Origin: Chitinophagaceae bacterium
Lineage (GTDB): Bacteria; Bacteroidota; Bacteroidia; Chitinophagales; UBA10324
Length of the DNA: 64,000 nucleotides
Assembly: GCA_947469485.1 (NCBI GenBank)
Contig: CANIPU010000006.1
Coordinates: forward strand, 62,001-126,000
Direction: 5' to 3'
Shown here piece by piece: positions 8,283 to 16,412 of the stretch. Both the position numbers and the translations under genes were made by a program. The notes under the pieces were generated by a model. The model was not told where the DNA came from and searched no databases. It saw nothing but the letters and a program-made list of their open reading frames with translations. How positions within the stretch are numbered: the stretch's first letter is position 1; each line of letters begins with the position of its first letter.

Positions 8283-9959
8283 TTACTCTGCAATCACAAA
8301 TTTGCTTCGCGAAATTTTTCCTTCTGATAAAATGAAAATAAAATAAATTCCACTAAACAATGATTTTGAATCAAACTGAATTCCGGAATTTGAAATGGCT
8401 AGCGGGATAAAAATTTCTCTTCCTGATAAATCATAAATTTTAATCTCTGAATTATCCAAGTTGAAATTATTAAACCTTAAAATAAAAAAATCATCGGCAG
8501 GAATAGGATAAATACTAAATGAGTTTAAATCTGAATTTAACTTTGTATTTCCATTAATAATTTCAATAGCTGTATCAAGTTCACAGGTGTACGGAAGCGG
8601 ATTTATTTCAAGTGGTAGCCCGGCTATTAAAGAATAGCCAGCAAACCCACTGAAATCCATTGGATAAAACTCAGCTCTGAAACACTGATTTTGGGAAGGA
8701 GTTGACCCTTGTGTCATAGCTCCCGTAGCGCCTATTGGATTGATATAATTCCAAACTGTATTCTTTGATGAATCAATTTCAAAAAATGTTCCTTTTGCTC
8801 CGGCACAAATAAGCAAATTGCCATTTTCAAATATTTGAGCACCAGAAATATTTGAAGAATAAAAATCGGTTGGAGTTGGTGCTTCATAAGTCCAGGTTAA
8901 TACTGAAGGTAAATAGGGTAATGACTGATTGTATTCGCCTTGAGTATTTACAGGAGTAGTGATTATATCTATGGAGGAAAAGTTTCCGGCAGGCCTTCCA
9001 GCTCCATTATTAAATATCATGATACTTCCTTCAAAAGGTAAACCAGGAGTAATCCATTTTGCATTGTGTTGACCAAATAATTTTTTGTCAGTCATTAATC
9101 CGTTATTATAAGTCTGCGGATTTCCCCATCGATATAACAGGTCACCTCCTTTTCCTGAATTTCCACCTGAATGAGAAGATGCCTGAGCAGTAGTTGTACT
9201 ATGATCAATTACCCATATTTCATTAAAATTATGAGAACTCAAAAGTATCTGATCCAACTGCGGATTGTAATCAACTGAATTCATATGCAACCAATCAAAA
9301 TTCGCCAATCCAATTCCGGGAAAATTTATATTCAGCAATTCCGGATGCAAACCAACAATTCCAAAATTGTTTTTTGTTGAATCATATTCCTGTACCAAAT
9401 GATCCCACACATGCCATTCCCAAACAATATTTGCACTGTCAGCACCAATCGGTTGTAATTCAATAATTTTTTCGCTCCATAATGAAGTTGACAACCATGA
9501 TGGATCTCTTCCTTCTGCCACTGCGGCGGAATTTGATTTATTATCCCATACAATGGCTAAAACATTACCATTTGGCAATGGTTTTATATCGTGATGCTGG
9601 CATTCACTGTTGCTCGAAATAGAGTAACTCCATAATACATTTCCGCTCCAATCTATTTTTTCAATAACTCCTCCTTGGCCACCGGAAATAAAAGTTGTGT
9701 TGTTTGCATTTCCTGCTCTTAATAAATTTCCATCAGGTAATAAATAAACCGCTTGTCCCGGCCTATAAGCACTGTTCCATTCTTTAACTTCCTTTCCGCA
9801 TTTATCAATTAAATAAGTTTTAGTTGAACCAATGGGCGAAAATAAAACATATCCATTGTCAATTGCTCCTGAATCATGCTGTATCAACCCCATTGTTTGA
9901 GCTACTGATTTCAAACTGAAAAATGAAATAAAAATTAGGGTGTAAATATTTTTTTTCAT
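8283..9959 (-). CDS. arylsulfotransferase-like protein with T9SS sorting domain
   Basis: A 558-residue exported protein. A signal peptide (cut after SVAQ, near residue 20) precedes a beta-propeller of the arylsulfotransferase (ASST) family: short PDGN/PNGN turn motifs (YLLPDGNLL, PLPNGNVLA), WSGNVLW, and conserved His-containing segments (CQHHDI, WLHMNSVDY, GQHNAKW) that could supply the catalytic histidine. The last 75 residues are a T9SS sorting domain (SIYPIPADDF...LFSGIYFI). The start is the ATG at 9959; the longer frame runs 26 codons upstream from a non-preferred region. ASST enzymes move sulfate between phenolic compounds; whether this one is catalytic is not shown. Monocistronic, flanked by terminators. 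Confidence 0.75.
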   Translation of the reverse strand: MKKNIYTLIFISFFSLKSVAQTMGLIQHDSGAIDNGYVLFSPIGSTKTYLIDKCGKEVKEWNSAYRPGQAVYLLPDGNLLRAGNANNTTFISGGQGGVIEKIDWSGNVLWSYSISSNSECQHHDIKPLPNGNVLAIVWDNKSNSAAVAEGRDPSWLSTSLWSEKIIELQPIGADSANIVWEWHVWDHLVQEYDSTKNNFGIVGLHPELLNINFPGIGLANFDWLHMNSVDYNPQLDQILLSSHNFNEIWVIDHSTTTAQASSHSGGNSGKGGDLLYRWGNPQTYNNGLMTDKKLFGQHNAKWITPGLPFEGSIMIFNNGAGRPAGNFSSIDIITTPVNTQGEYNQSLPYLPSVLTWTYEAPTPTDFYSSNISGAQIFENGNLLICAGAKGTFFEIDSSKNTVWNYINPIGATGAMTQGSTPSQNQCFRAEFYPMDFSGFAGYSLIAGLPLEINPLPYTCELDTAIEIINGNTKLNSDLNSFSIYPIPADDFFILRFNNFNLDNSEIKIYDLSGREIFIPLAISNSGIQFDSKSLFSGIYFIFILSEGKISRSKFVIAE

Positions 9960-10043
9960 TGAAATGGGTTTTGTATTGGATGCAAATTGATAAAGAAAGT
10001 TTAGAGAGAGAAAATTTTTTCTTTCTGCTACACTCATAAAATT

Positions 10044-10120: not shown

Positions 10121-11623
10121 TTACCACTTCCATCCGATTGTAAAAGTGAATTGATTAGTATAAGTATTCAGTTTCACTCCCGGAACATCAACTCCAGCCA
10201 AAGAATAAGGCTGAAGAAAGGAAGCATACTTTGTTCTTCCGAAACCAAAGTCAATAAAATAAGCATCTTGTTTAATTCCGATACCGCCACTGTAAACTGT
10301 TGCTTTATTATCAAAACCACTTTGAGCAACCCCGCTTTTAAACGGACTTCCGTACAAGGCATATCCTGCGCGAAAACGAATAACATCCAACGAAGCTTCT
10401 CCTCCTATACGAATATTATAGGATGAACCGTATTTATTATTAATTGTCTGATTGAGGTTATTCTCATAACTTTTTCCATCAGTAGAATTATCATCATTGA
10501 ATGAGAAGAATGCTTCACTATAATCAAGAAATTCATAATCAAAAGAAAGGAATCCATATTTTTTAAAAGTAAGTGCAAGGCTTCCATTCAACCTCCAAGG
10601 TGTAGTCAAATTATAATCATATTTTCCTATTGGGGAATCAGCATTATAAGTTCCAAGCGTATCATCTAAAACAGTTTTCATTGAACTGCTATACCTATCG
10701 CTCAAAAAAAGAAACGAAGGACTGTGAACTGAGCCTCCTAAACGGATATAATCATTCAATCGAGCAATCAAACCAAACTTAACATTTATTCCTGTACCAT
10801 TTGTGCTCTGGCTTTGATCCAAAGTAAATGATTTAAAATAATCAATACTGTCGTTAATATCAGTTTCAGTATAACCTGAGCTATATCTGTAGTTTATATC
10901 AACAAAACCAAGCGAACCACCTATGTATAATTTATCATTATAATTAGCTCCCATAGTGAATGCATACTCTGTCATTCCACCGCGTGTAGTATAAGTTTGT
11001 TCCTGTTTAACTCCACCACCTTCTGTTAGTGCCCAATATTGAGTAGTGTCATTAGAAAAAGTCTGTAATAATGCTGTTTCATAAGCTAAGCCTGCATCAA
11101 ATGGATAGGCATTAGAAATTTCATTTGTGGTAATTCCACCTGAGCTGTTTACACTTTCTACAAATTTTTCTGCAAGACTTGATGAAGGGTTAAAACCCGT
11201 GTAATAAACATTATTGTGAAAACCGGCAATACGATTGCCGCCAAAAGCAAAATTTAGATTACGCCACTTCCCACTGTTTTTTTCATCTAACTGTTTCACC
11301 CAAACAATTCCAAAACCTGAAGCATTGAAATTGTATTTATGTTCCTCACTTGAATTAGAATCAAATAAACTGTTGCTTTTTATTGAAAGAAACGATGGTG
11401 AAATAGAAAACTGGTTGTTTTGAAAAATTGAAACTCCTGCTGGATTAATTACAAGTGAGCTGTAATCTCCACCCAATGCACCAAATGCACTTCCTGCACC
11501 AAGTCCTCTGCCACTTGACCCGTACATCAATTGTGAATAGCGAAGAGCGTCTTCATCACTTTGAGCATTAATAAAATTGGAAAGAAGTAGGGACACACTT
11601 ATGGCTGTAAGAATCTTTTTCAT
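10121..11623 (-). CDS. FadL/OmpP1-like outer-membrane barrel
   Basis: A 500-residue outer-membrane protein: signal peptide cut after FINA, a Gly/Ala-rich N-terminal segment typical of the OmpP1/FadL/TodX group (SSGRGLGAGSAFGALGGD, then NPAGVSIF), alternating beta-strands throughout, and a terminal aromatic residue (FTIGWKW). Family members transport hydrophobic molecules such as fatty acids; in Bacteroidota many are loosely labelled hemin receptors without proof. It is co-directional with the lipoprotein gene ending at 11646 (22-nt gap) and probably co-transcribed, ending at the terminator at 10044-10080. Substrate is unknown. Confidence 0.8.
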   Translation of the reverse strand: MKKILTAISVSLLLSNFINAQSDEDALRYSQLMYGSSGRGLGAGSAFGALGGDYSSLVINPAGVSIFQNNQFSISPSFLSIKSNSLFDSNSSEEHKYNFNASGFGIVWVKQLDEKNSGKWRNLNFAFGGNRIAGFHNNVYYTGFNPSSSLAEKFVESVNSSGGITTNEISNAYPFDAGLAYETALLQTFSNDTTQYWALTEGGGVKQEQTYTTRGGMTEYAFTMGANYNDKLYIGGSLGFVDINYRYSSGYTETDINDSIDYFKSFTLDQSQSTNGTGINVKFGLIARLNDYIRLGGSVHSPSFLFLSDRYSSSMKTVLDDTLGTYNADSPIGKYDYNLTTPWRLNGSLALTFKKYGFLSFDYEFLDYSEAFFSFNDDNSTDGKSYENNLNQTINNKYGSSYNIRIGGEASLDVIRFRAGYALYGSPFKSGVAQSGFDNKATVYSGGIGIKQDAYFIDFGFGRTKYASFLQPYSLAGVDVPGVKLNTYTNQFTFTIGWKW

Positions 11624-11645: not shown

Positions 11646-13433
11646 TTATTTAGGATTTTTCTGGAATGATGGTTTGCTTCCTGAAGAAGAAGAAGAACTT
11701 TTACTGCTGTTTCCTGAACTATTTGACGATGAACTTTTGTTATTGCTTCCTGAATTAGTTGAAGAACTCTGCGAGGGTTTTGTATAACCTGGTGCAGAGT
11801 TTTGTTGTGGCGGAGCAGAATATTTAGGTGCTGAGTTTTGTTGTTGCTGAACTTTCGGTGCGCTATAATTATTTGAATTTTGGTCAGAAGGCTTATTGTA
11901 TTGTTGTGATTGTTGATTTGAATTACTGTTGCCTGAATTACTGTTGTATTGGTTAGATGGTTTTTGATTTGAAGAATTCTGTTGTGAATTATTTGAATAC
12001 GACTGACCATTGTAACCATTATCATATGATGTTTCCTTCGGAGTTTTCGGAGGATTGTTTTGTGATGGTTGAGTTACTTTAGGTGCGGTATTCTGTTGTT
12101 GAGGTGAAGTATATTTTGGTGCTGAATTATTTTGTTGCTGAGGAGCAGTATACTTTGGAGCCGTATTGTTTTGCTGAATTTGCTGATTTGGTACACTAAC
12201 CTTAGGATTTGAATTGTTCGGCTGAGTTTGTTGTTGAACAGGTTTATTCGAATTGGTTGAATTCTGCTGATCATATTTAATTCCATTATTGCTATTAAGC
12301 TGCTGAGAGGGCGCCTGTGTATTATTCTGCTGCTGAATGGGCTTGTTAATATTTGAAGAATTTGAATTCTGCTGATCATACTTACCACTGCTATTACTAT
12401 TCAAAGGTTTAGAAGTTGAATTCAGGGTTTGGGATTGAATATCTCCTTTGCCGGAATAATTTCCACCATCAGTTACTTTAGTATTTGAGTTTAATCCGTT
12501 TGAATTAATTACATCAGGTTTTACTTGTAATCCATTCGAGTTAATATTTGAACCTGTAGAATGATTTTGTAAATCACTACCATTCACAGCATGATTATAA
12601 TCTATTGATTCTTCATTCTTTCCTCCTAAACCACCGGTTTCATAAGTGGTATTTGAAGTATTACCTCCGTAACTGGTGTGATAACCATAATAAGTTTCCG
12701 GAGTATAGTAGTAAGAAGGATTATAATAGTTATCGTAACCTCCATATCCATAATTGTTTCCATAATATCCGTCGTTATATCCATTCCAGTAACCGTTATA
12801 ATATCCGTTATTATATCCATTATAATACCCGTTGCCATAGCCGCCATAACCATACCCGTAATATGGATAGCCATAGTTGTGATAGCCATAATTATGATAT
12901 GGACTATACCATGGATAATACCAATTGTTACTAGCACATCCCCACCAAGGGTTATAATTTCCAAAGCTTATTGAAAATGAAAAACCACCGGGATAATATG
13001 AGTAATAAGACGGAGCGTAGGAGTACCAATAAGGGTTACAATAAATATCGCTATAAAAATTATATCCGCTATAGGGTGAATACCATCTGCGGATATTTCT
13101 TGTATAGTAATAGTCATCATCGTCGTAGGCATAACTTGTACTACCATCATAATAATTATTGGTTATATAAGTATTGCCATTTCCGTCTGTTTCAGTACGC
13201 TGATTATCGGCCTGGTTATTTAAATCATAATTCTGATTATTATCCTGTACATATTCTTGTTGTTGCTCCTGTTGCACTGGAGCGGCATCATAATTATTTA
13301 CTTTATCCTGATTGCTTTGTCTATCAGCCTGACTGTAATACAAATCATCGGTCGTTTTTGAAACCTGACCGGTTGTGCTGCAAGAAGTAATAATTCCGGA
13401 AAGTATGAGAAAGCCAAATATGTATTTGCTCAT
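11646..13433 (-). CDS. low-complexity Tyr/Gly- and Gln/Asn/Ser-rich lipoprotein
   Basis: A 595-residue lipoprotein I do not recognise. Lipobox GIITSC (Cys about residue 18). About 30-95 is Asn/Gln/Asp-rich; about 95-250 is dominated by Tyr, Gly and Asn in short NGYYNGY-type repeats with a few YYPWYSPY segments; about 270-595 is a disordered tail of Gln, Asn, Ser and Pro with repeated APKYTAPQQQ-like units, ending in a Ser run and basic residues. The start is the ATG at 13433 (SKYIFGFLIL); the longer frame hides the lipoprotein signal. The composition resembles prion-like or adhesive surface proteins. The gene precedes the FadL-like gene by 22 nt. Function unknown; a structural or surface-coating role is speculation. 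Confidence 0.7.
   Translation of the reverse strand: MSKYIFGFLILSGIITSCSTTGQVSKTTDDLYYSQADRQSNQDKVNNYDAAPVQQEQQQEYVQDNNQNYDLNNQADNQRTETDGNGNTYITNNYYDGSTSYAYDDDDYYYTRNIRRWYSPYSGYNFYSDIYCNPYWYSYAPSYYSYYPGGFSFSISFGNYNPWWGCASNNWYYPWYSPYHNYGYHNYGYPYYGYGYGGYGNGYYNGYNNGYYNGYWNGYNDGYYGNNYGYGGYDNYYNPSYYYTPETYYGYHTSYGGNTSNTTYETGGLGGKNEESIDYNHAVNGSDLQNHSTGSNINSNGLQVKPDVINSNGLNSNTKVTDGGNYSGKGDIQSQTLNSTSKPLNSNSSGKYDQQNSNSSNINKPIQQQNNTQAPSQQLNSNNGIKYDQQNSTNSNKPVQQQTQPNNSNPKVSVPNQQIQQNNTAPKYTAPQQQNNSAPKYTSPQQQNTAPKVTQPSQNNPPKTPKETSYDNGYNGQSYSNNSQQNSSNQKPSNQYNSNSGNSNSNQQSQQYNKPSDQNSNNYSAPKVQQQQNSAPKYSAPPQQNSAPGYTKPSQSSSTNSGSNNKSSSSNSSGNSSKSSSSSSGSKPSFQKNPK
12730..12905 (-). repeat. degenerate tandem repeat coding for NGY/GYG units
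   Basis: Short, imperfect repeats built around ATATCCATTATA-like units encode alternating Asn-Gly-Tyr-Tyr in the lipoprotein at 11646-13433. The repetition is at the protein level with varied codons rather than as an exact DNA repeat. It also creates long spurious open frames on the opposite strand. Confidence 0.5.
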
Positions 13434-13661
13434 AAAAATTATTTTAGTGAAATTGAGATTGTTAATTTTCGATTTCATGGCTTTTAATTTATTGTTTGAA
13501 TATTAGAAAATGTTAAAGTTTAAAATTGAGCTAAAATTATTTAAAATCAGTTTGTTTTTGTTAACCGTTTCTCCAAAAAAACAAAATTGTGACTATCAAT
13601 TTTCGAAAGGTTGAAAAAACATTTTTACTATTGTTTTCCAACATTATGCCAAACTTACAAC

Positions 13662-15137
13662 ATGAGTAAAGAAATAACGAGCAGAGAGCAGGATTATTCG
13701 CAATGGTACAACGACCTTGTAATTAAAGGAGGACTGGCAGATTACTCTGCAGTTCGGGGTTGTATGGTAATAAAACCTTATGGTTATTCAATTTGGGAGA
13801 AAATTCAACGAACATTGGATGATATGTTCAAAGCAACCGGACATGTGAATGCCTATTTCCCGCTTTTCATTCCGAAAAGTTTTTTGTCGAAAGAGGCGGC
13901 ACATGTAGAAGGATTTGCAAAAGAATGTGCGGTTGTTACACATTATCGTTTGAAAAATTCTCCTGATGGAAAAGGAATTATTGTTGATCCTGATGCGAAA
14001 CTGGAGGAAGAATTAATTGTGAGGCCAACTTCCGAGACCATTATCTGGAACACATACAAAGACTGGATAACATCTTATCGCGATTTGCCATTGCTCATTA
14101 ATCAGTGGGCTAATGTGGTTCGGTGGGAAATGCGCACACGATTGTTTTTGCGTACTGCAGAATTTTTGTGGCAGGAAGGTCATACTGCTCACGCAACAAA
14201 AGAAGAAGCAGTGGAAGAAACCATGAAGATGCTCGGTGTATATGCTGACTTTGCCGAACAGTGGATGGCGATTCCTGTTATTAAAGGATACAAAACCGCG
14301 AACGAGCGGTTTGCAGGTGCAGAGGATACTTACTGCATTGAAGCCTTGATGCAGGATGGAAAGGCATTGCAGGCAGGAACTTCGCATTTTCTCGGACAAA
14401 ATTTTGCGAAAGCATTTGATGTGAAATTTGTAACGAAGGAAAATAAATCTGAATTTGTTTGGGCAACATCGTGGGGAGTTTCTACCCGTTTGATTGGTGC
14501 CCTTATTATGGCGCATTCTGATGATAAGGGATTAATTCTTCCTCCGAAACTTGCACCAATACAAGTAGTGATTGTTCCAATTTATAAAACCGAAGAACAA
14601 CTCGCAACAATAAATGAAAAAGCAACCGAGATAAAAAAATCACTGGAAGCAAAAGGCATCAGTGTGAAGTATGATAACGATGATAAACAAAAACCGGGGT
14701 GGAAATTTGCCGAGTATGAAATGAAGGGAGTACCGATTCGCATTGCAATGGGACCACGCGATATTGAAAACGGAACAGTAGAAATTGCGCGCCGCGACAC
14801 CGGAGAAAAACACACTTACTCGTTTACTGACCTCACCACAAAAGTGGAACACTTGTTAGAACAAATTCAGTTAAATATTTTTCAGAAAGCTTTGGACTAC
14901 CGAGATGAACACATTACACGCGCTGATACCTGGGATGAATTTGTAGATGTGTTGGAAAATAAAACCGGATTTGTTGCTGCGCATTGGGATGGAACTTCAG
15001 AAACCGAATTGAAGATTAAAGAAAAAACAAAAGCCACCATCCGTTGCATTGAATTGAATGCACATGCCGAAGAAGGAAAATGCATTCTCACCGGAAATCC
15101 TTCGCATAAGAGAGTGCTGTTTGCAAAAGCGTATTGA
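13662..15137 (+). CDS. proS: proline--tRNA ligase, archaeal/eukaryote type
   Basis: Class II aminoacyl-tRNA synthetase of 491 residues, charging tRNA-Pro. Motif 2 ([19 protein letters not shown]) and motif 3 ([15 protein letters not shown]) are clear, followed by the anticodon-binding domain ([11 protein letters not shown]) and the C-terminal zinc-binding-type domain ending in KAY. It lacks the editing insertion of the 570-residue bacterial ProRS and so belongs to the short type 3 group. I chose the ATG at 13662 ([16 protein letters not shown]), the family's usual start, over a frame-opening TTG at 13611. The downstream lipoprotein gene begins 22 nt later. Confidence 0.96.
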
Positions 15138-15704: not shown

Positions 15705-16412
15705 ATGACTAAAAACAAAAAACAACCACAAACACCAAGAGACCTCATAATCGAAAACCTTCGGCTAAAAGGTCAGGTGATAAAGCAGGTTGCTGCCACA
15801 ACTCACGAAGTGTTTCACGAGTTTAAAAACCTGTTGCGTAAAACTCAAAGCGAACTGGCTTACACTCTAGTGAAGAGTAATATCAAAATTGATTTACAAT
15901 ATTCCGACATCGGGCAGTTTGAAGCGGAGATGAAAATAAATGATGAAGTGGTGATTTATGCGCAGCACTCCAATGTATTTACTTTTGATCAAGACCATTA
16001 TATCTGGAGGCTTCCTTACATTCAGGAAGATCCGTTGCGAGCGCATTGCGGCATGATTCAGATTTATAATTTTCTGAGCGATTCATTTAAGTACAACCGC
16101 AATCATGATGTTGGTTACATGATTGCACGGATATTCGTGAACAAGGACAAACATTTTTTCATTGAAGGAAAACGACAACTCGGCTTTTTATATAATGATT
16201 TTGAAAACCTGATACTAGATGCTTCACACATTCAGGATGTAATTGAATCCTCCATTCTTTACACCTTGAATTTTGATTTGCTGGTTCCGCCTTACGAGAT
16301 GGTGAAAGAATTAACCATCAATCAGAAAATTGAAATGCAGGGAATACAATCGCAACAAACCGGCAAGCGCTTAGGGTTTCGCTTCAGTGCAGATGATGAA
16401 GAAATTCGTTGA
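15705..16412 (+). CDS. uncharacterised cytoplasmic protein
   Basis: A 235-residue protein without signal peptide or membrane segment. It opens with a basic tail (MTKNKKQPQTPRD), then a helical region (about 15-55), followed by mixed alpha/beta with aromatic-rich segments (FTFDQDHYIWRLPY, FKYNRNHDVGYMIARIF) and a polar C-terminus. It looks like a conserved Bacteroidota protein, but I recognise no domain or catalytic motif. It ends 2 nt from the convergent permease gene, leaving no room for a terminator between them. Confidence 0.7.
   Translation: MTKNKKQPQTPRDLIIENLRLKGQVIKQVAATTHEVFHEFKNLLRKTQSELAYTLVKSNIKIDLQYSDIGQFEAEMKINDEVVIYAQHSNVFTFDQDHYIWRLPYIQEDPLRAHCGMIQIYNFLSDSFKYNRNHDVGYMIARIFVNKDKHFFIEGKRQLGFLYNDFENLILDASHIQDVIESSILYTLNFDLLVPPYEMVKELTINQKIEMQGIQSQQTGKRLGFRFSADDEEIR

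Follow-up and report, generated by a model that had tools for sequence, protein, structure and literature searches.

A gene for a FadL-fold outer-membrane barrel and, directly before it, a gene for a low-complexity lipoprotein form a real, widely conserved and apparently uncharacterized pair. Both genes lie in the window, by which we mean the whole stretch of 64,000 nucleotides that was analyzed, and their features are collected in Table 1. The explanation that we prefer, and hold tentatively, is that the two are an old module in which a FadL-type barrel would act as a scaffold, not as a transporter, and would hold a disordered partner by a DDxYY motif, the partner serving as a periplasmic polymer. 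A pair kept so widely probably matters for the cell envelope of these bacteria. No paper was tied to the barrel and its partner in the literature that was searched, which leaves most subscription papers outside, and the available text of two papers on the BAM complex of Bacteroidota (PMC12611786; PMC12578637) does not describe the present barrel or its disordered partner.

Table 1. Positions in the window of the barrel gene, the partner gene and the neighboring proS gene, with the evidence for each feature
Feature	Position	Strand	Evidence
FadL-fold outer-membrane barrel P0002, 500 aa	10121..11623	(-)	AlphaFold2, Foldseek, VIA-align
Barrel N-tail QSDEDALRYS, predicted mature residues 1-10	11534..11563	(-)	predicted cleavage site
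Hatch motif NPA, barrel residues 60-62	11438..11446	(-)	N60 and P61 invariant in alignments A1 and A5
Disordered (predicted) lipoprotein partner P0001, 595 aa	11646..13433	(-)	ORF and translation
Signal peptide, partner residues 1-17; lipobox Cys is residue 18	13383..13433	(-)	sequence
DDLYYS motif, partner residues 29-34	13332..13349	(-)	alignments A2 and A6
Acidic Gln/Asn block, partner residues 34-90	13164..13334	(-)	composition
Tyr/Gly/Asn aromatic block, acidic, partner residues 91-265	12639..13163	(-)	composition
NGYx tetrad repeats, partner residues 201-225	12759..12833	(-)	sequence
Basic Gln/Asn/Ser/Pro tail, partner residues 266-595; five Y-S/T-x-P motifs, Ser-rich end	11649..12638	(-)	composition
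proS (proline--tRNA ligase), divergent conserved neighbor, outside the pair proper	13665..15134	(+)	Pfam/NCBIfam

Distribution of the gene pair

A low-complexity partner was found directly upstream of the barrel gene in 182 of 184 evaluable loci, whereas the same rule found one for 45 of 729 control genes. The original prediction had paired the lipoprotein with the outer-membrane barrel gene 22 nt downstream of it, and the association proved to be stronger than its author knew; over 169 loci, the gap between the two genes has a median of 38 nt. That the conserved pairing itself is real is close to certain. Altogether 190 loci were scanned (189 distinct), comprising 50 from relatives, 80 named loci and 60 from a phylum search. 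The named loci are the best 80 of 531 and therefore favor near relatives, while those of the phylum search were picked by hand from the matches, 40 within the class Bacteroidia and 20 outside it. Five of the 189 distinct loci were set aside because the available stretch had insufficient room upstream. A first automatic rule recognized a partner at 169 of the 190 loci; the 21 misses were inspected, and a broader rule based on tail composition was then applied. One of the two exceptions (L114) has a different upstream protein, as judged by eye. In the other (G047) the barrel is on contig C1 and the partner on contig C11, adjoining proS, so that a true absence of the partner is ruled out there and both genes are kept.

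The barrel was recovered in 56 of 60 relatives and, at E ≤ 1e-20, in 134 of the 149 class genomes sampled, nearly always as a single copy. Across the phylum, 166 of 198 genomes gave some match at E ≤ 0.001, many of them several, a level at which FadL subfamilies are mixed. Two class genomes that lack a barrel match (G096 and G153) gave no partner match either, a weak result because the partner profile misses some partners. All four sampled genomes of the family coded f70 (G261, G301, G333 and G362) were without a barrel match at E ≤ 1e-20, possibly reflecting loss of the barrel.

Outside the class, an ORF with CYT[QKR] near its start was present in 19 of the 20 loci fetched, and most of these ORFs correspond to the upstream lipoprotein and combine an acidic aromatic part with a basic tail. 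In two loci outside the class (L231 and L235), the ORF immediately before the barrel encodes a different kind of lipoprotein; that of L235 has a basic tail and a CGSCH motif like that of heme-binding proteins.

The barrel and its place in the FadL family

AlphaFold2 modeled the barrel with a mean pLDDT of 93 and a pTM of 0.88, with short helices before the first strand that resemble the FadL hatch. FadL-family chains (FadL, TodX, TbuX, CymD, BamG and PorV) made up all of the best 26 rows in Foldseek and VIA-align alike. Foldseek, with E-values down to 1.8e-16 against these chains, ranked Bacteroides thetaiotaomicron BamG first, followed by E. coli FadL mutants, other BamGs, TodX and CymD. In VIA-align the highest Z was that of CymD (32.3), with FadL and BamG at 28.9–29.8 and PorV at about 25. 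An N-terminal hatch together with a barrel resembling solved FadL-type structures places the protein in the FadL superfamily by fold, in agreement with the FadL-like barrel that had originally been predicted.

Although it shares the barrel fold and the NPA hatch with FadL, TodX, TbuX and CymD, the proteins of PF03349 (Z about 28–32), the window barrel differs from them in having no Pfam match: neither PF03349 (Toluene_X) nor any other Pfam family was found at E ≤ 0.1, and NCBIfam likewise gave none. Searching its own genome with PF03349 returned only a sub-threshold match, at another gene, and 16 of 46 barrel relatives matched this family at E ≤ 0.01. In a tree of 32 proteins, 21 barrels of the present kind, including five from outside the class, form one group with a support of 99*; the other groups are BamG (four rows, 100*), FadL (three rows, 99*) and the PorV-like proteins (four rows, 93). 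This is a quick tree in which the root was not inferred and the PorV rows sit on long branches. On these comparisons of sequence, the barrel is a FadL-family subfamily of its own, distinct from BamG, PorV and canonical FadL.

Two named candidates were considered for the barrel and rejected. BamG is ruled out by the separate tree group and by the presence of a second, BamG-like gene in the genome. An ORF at L268 matches three solved BamG chains (9hiv, 9hjm and 9n2d) with E-values of 5e-202, 1e-62 and 5e-36, and an ORF at L279, which groups with BamG in the tree, recovers the BamG-like gene on C12 of the window's genome; the barrel and the C12 protein match by BLASTP only at an E of 0.37. PorV shares the FadL fold and has a weak profile match to the N-terminal part of the barrel (6h3i_F, E 0.00036). 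It is ruled out by its separate tree group, the long branches of the PorV rows being kept in mind, and by the genome's having its PorV as a separate gene elsewhere (L253). Another PorV-like barrel in the same genome, 336 aa long (L252, 811–1821), has a lipoprotein gene directly after it.

Both of these proteins handle other proteins. In the available text of PMC12578637, PorV is the substrate-binding shuttle of type IX secretion, and BamG is, in what is available of PMC12611786 and PMC12578637, a FadL-like protein whose extended N-tail threads the lateral opening that FadL uses for passage of its substrate. BamG retains the lipoprotein BamH, which in F. johnsoniae is held by its lipidated N-terminal tail, and this pair of the Bacteroidota BAM complex is described as conserved across the phylum, with B. 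thetaiotaomicron having a second copy, BamG2-BamH2, in a putative operon (PMC12611786; PMC12578637). FadL-fold barrels in the Bacteroidota have been put to protein handling on at least two occasions, as PorV in type IX secretion and as BamG in barrel assembly, and the present barrels add a further subfamily.

It is by analogy with BamG and BamH that we suggest a scaffold. As in that pair, where the N-terminal tail of BamH binds BamG, a FadL-fold barrel with a long N-tail, predicted in the present case, is accompanied by a lipoprotein. Unlike the present partner, which has neither a predicted fold nor an export signal, BamH is described as a folded surface lipoprotein in the available text. The Asn of the NPA motif is at predicted mature position 40, a value that holds from the 5th through the 75th percentile among 174 barrels (186 examined, the cleavage site being called by pattern). 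Its equivalent in E. coli FadL is N33, according to the titles of structure entries, which makes the predicted N-tail of the barrel seven residues longer. VIA alignments of the barrel begin at residue 24 with BamG and PorV and mostly at residues 27–36 with FadL-type chains. Because the predicted N-tail exceeds that of FadL and is almost fixed in length, the barrel may serve as a scaffold, in the manner of BamG and PorV, and not as a transporter.

A fixed N-tail, measured here from a cleavage site guessed by pattern, is also compatible with a transporter. The barrel could be a true channel of the FadL type that passes a hydrophobic compound, with the disordered lipoprotein as an accessory that captures the substrate or gates the channel, a possibility that we regard as unlikely but worth serious attention. 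The nearest solved folds do include the transporters FadL, TodX, TbuX and CymD, the last with the top VIA-align Z; the hatch motif is retained, and a canonical FadL in another class genome (L264) also has an adjoining lipoprotein gene. However, the three Bacteroidia FadL rows group apart from the barrel, whose predicted N-tail is longer than that of FadL and near-constant in length, as the available text describes for the BamG tail that traverses the lateral opening (PMC12611786; PMC12578637), and a long charged disordered chain would be unusual as a substrate handler.

The canonical FadL gene at L264 2695–4182 has directly behind it a gene for a large lipoprotein whose sequence, by eye, resembles a GDSL/SGNH hydrolase. 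A lipoprotein and FadL pair has also been reported in Flavobacterium johnsoniae, Fjoh_4940/Fjoh_4941, both of which are raised on TamL depletion and for which the authors suggest a functional link in the available text of PMC12045153, the only paper in the searched literature (most subscription papers lying outside it) that names either gene. Like the present pair, it has a lipoprotein gene beside a FadL-like gene. There the FadL assignment comes from a Pfam and DELTA-BLAST match to FadL (PMC12045153), and on a comparison by description only, this match fits canonical FadL better than it fits the present barrel.

Composition and conservation of the partner

The partner ORF encodes 595 aa from the start at 13433, the one chosen in the original prediction, or 610 aa if translation begins at an ATG further upstream, at 13478, and the start at 13433 places a hydrophobic stretch N-terminal to the lipobox Cys18, as expected of the lipoprotein that had been predicted. 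The blocks of composition described in that prediction (Asn/Gln, then Tyr/Gly/Asn, then Gln/Asn/Ser/Pro with a Ser-rich end) are borne out by measurement. Residues 34–90 contain 21% Gln and 19% Asn with a net charge of −7; residues 91–265 contain 31% Tyr, 15% Gly and 14% Asn, also with a net charge of −7; and residues 266–595 contain 20% Ser, 19% Asn and 15% Gln with a net charge of +13. The Ser-rich stretch comprises residues 556–586, and the tail has 24 Lys and no Arg. The O-glycosylation motif D[ST][AILVMT] does not occur in the window partner.

Within its own genome of 3.08 Mb, the partner has a single full-length match. It matches no Pfam or NCBIfam family, a scan of the window protein and 41 members gave no convincing family for the partner type in either collection, and PHROGs offered nothing useful for partner or barrel. 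A single AlphaFold2 prediction from a gappy 54-row alignment gave a mean pLDDT of 43.1, with 522 of the 595 residues below 50, which suggests disorder. A search for relatives of solved structure returned six matches at E ≤ 1, the best (0.00081) to mL77, and these were rejected as matches of composition.

The conservation of the family lies in its layout. The mean column identity of the partner is 18% (alignment A6). D29, D30 and Y32 are invariant in alignments A2 and A6, whose rows were partly chosen by the DDxY pattern, and C18 is kept in at least 90% of A6. Of 149 Bacteroidia-type members, 144 have a strict DDxY or DGxY near the N-terminus (shuffled mean 15.3), a fairer count than A2 or A6 in that many members entered by profile or lipobox, DDxY still being one route of entry. 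Outside the class, DDxY is mostly missing, being found by a loose pattern in 3 of 17. Counts on 167 sequences, and those on 149 and 17, exclude two cut sequences (L126 and L152), and the latter also drop one duplicate.

Tyr and Trp are enriched in the first part of 147 of the 149 members, and Arg and Lys in the tail of 142. The net charge of the second half is positive in 166 of 167 relatives and that of the first half negative in 142 of 167, and 143 of 169 partners end in five residues of which two or more are basic, compared with 150 of 820 control ORFs and 12 of 190 barrels. The tails hold 329 occurrences of Y[ST]xP against 34 in shuffled sequences, with at least one in 90 of the 149 members, and repeats of the GYxxGY type are found in the aromatic block of 64 of the 149, against 1.8 after shuffling. 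The pattern [NS]GY was no more frequent than in shuffles (86 and 87.4). A RIRRF-like motif is present in 78 of 149 members and a YGPR-like motif in 109, and wherever all three motifs, these two included, are present, their order is identical (60 of 60). At the level of sequence, the conserved core is shown to consist of the DDxYY motif (within the class), an aromatic first part, a basic tail and Y-S/T-x-P.

The prion-like character claimed for the protein had a different fate. The threshold for such character is 30 Gln and Asn residues per 80, and the partner, with a maximum of 38, is the sole ORF to reach at least 30 among the 46 ORFs in the window that are 160 aa or longer. Just 19 of 167 relatives reach it, and Gln plus Asn declines with GC (rho −0.44), as does aromatic content (rho −0.40), so that Gln/Asn richness is ruled out as a conserved trait. 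The protein shares with prion-like or phase-separating proteins its Gln/Asn- and Tyr-rich stretches in the window and, in most relatives, an aromatic part and a basic tail; unlike in such proteins, the Gln/Asn richness is not conserved and the signal peptide makes the partner extracytoplasmic. The prion-like look is, from the sequences, a local flavor and not the conserved core of the family. The order of the blocks, which the original prediction had proposed to look for in homologues, is kept as an aromatic part followed by a basic low-complexity tail, while most have lost the Gln/Asn richness. Homologues lacking the low-complexity blocks had been named as counter-evidence, and here the outcome is mixed: the layout is generally kept, but one protein of 136 aa (L050) has the N-terminal motif without an aromatic block. 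The family thus offers a conserved low-complexity, apparently disordered extracytoplasmic protein whose rules, in motifs and charge order, can be read across a class.

Anchoring, location and possible role

In Bacteroidota, the surface export signal (LES) consists of two acidic residues after a basic or polar one, right behind the lipidated Cys, and its position is critical, according to the available text of PMC5080379. The N-terminus of the window partner after lipidation, CSTTGQV, has no acidic residue among the first six after the Cys; among 130 relatives called lipidated by pattern, 122 have none, six have one and two have two. The canonical signal is thereby shown, at the level of sequence, to be missing in the window partner and nearly all relatives. 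The original prediction had placed the lipoprotein at the surface, exported with the help of the barrel as a prion-like, amyloid or adhesive coat, and its claim of surface display is not supported by these N-termini. Both the blocks and the Gln/Asn density hold up in the window and in loci of the same genus, and the aromatic part and basic tail are conserved. Nevertheless, with the place of the export signal free of acidic residues in nearly all lipidated relatives, prion-like density in so small a share of the family, and no type IX sorting domain found by Pfam or NCBIfam in 41 members, some of them non-lipidated, we consider such a coat improbable.

The lipid anchor is itself variable. By pattern labels, 95 partners are lipidated and 26–27 of 121 are not, with 48 of 169 loci unlabeled, and three lipobox calls look false (L033, L194 and L204). 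On the FastTree of the barrels, these labels imply at fewest 10 changes between the lipidated and non-lipidated states. Non-lipidated partners have an ordinary signal peptide followed almost at once by DDxYY. Because the lipid is lost while the motif and the barrel stay, retention is best explained by the barrel, or by something that reads DDxYY. The periplasm would be the simplest site, since soluble forms outside the cell would be lost; this location is read solely from the missing export signal, and there may be other signals or routes.

In the scaffold explanation that we prefer, one gene would encode a FadL-fold barrel of its own subfamily and the preceding gene a dedicated, intrinsically disordered partner, whose N-terminal DDxYY segment would dock on the barrel. 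Docking of this kind would make the lipid anchor optional; since DDxY is mostly missing outside the class, it cannot be universal. The partner would lie under the outer membrane, in the periplasm, where its aromatic and basic blocks might form a flexible, self-sticking polymer that binds anionic envelope material (peptidoglycan or lipid A) and so perhaps helps to keep the outer membrane together. The Tyr-Arg chemistry of many relatives is weaker in the window partner, judging from its sequence, in which the tail has Lys and no Arg.

Chemistry that combines aromatic and acidic segments with basic Ser/Arg/Pro segments drives phase separation in the eukaryotic cytoplasm. A more speculative proposal, to which we give little credence, is that the Tyr/Trp-rich acidic and basic Ser/Arg/Pro protein forms an envelope condensate, seeded by its own barrel, that glues or patterns the outer membrane in most Bacteroidota. 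If true, this would be a lineage-wide condensate outside the cytoplasm, with its nucleator embedded in a membrane.

In E. coli, RcsF threads through porins. The disordered chain could likewise run through the barrel lumen to the outside, as a stress sensor or for partial surface display, in that a dedicated barrel adjoins a disordered lipoprotein that has no predicted folded domain to block its passage. This seems doubtful at best, since the hatch-like short helices before the first strand of the model should fill the lumen and the partner has no folded sensor domain.

The conserved proS neighborhood could explain part of the adjacency of the two genes. Of 109 loci examined, 89 contain a proS-like ORF, on the opposite strand in 88 and at most 1 kb upstream of the partner in 84. 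It is nonetheless very improbable that the two genes have no functional link and are merely retained in this old neighborhood, with the low-complexity protein a drifting filler: the frequency of proS as a neighbor and the low overall identity of the partner would fit, but the conservation of its motifs, charge order and basic C-terminus goes well beyond shuffled or control levels, and the pair also stands in 16 loci where proS was not found, only three of which have at least 2.5 kb before the partner.

Two further genes lie close to the pair. Two genes past proS, at 15705–16412 (+), is a protein of 235 aa with no convincing Pfam or NCBIfam family match; it is 43% identical to an ORF at L160, of a type seen close to the pair at 43 of 109 loci, and is another conserved unknown of this neighborhood. 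Immediately downstream of the barrel gene and likewise on the minus strand, at 8283–10037 (-), is an arylsulfotransferase-like gene whose product carries a type IX secretion C-terminal sorting domain.
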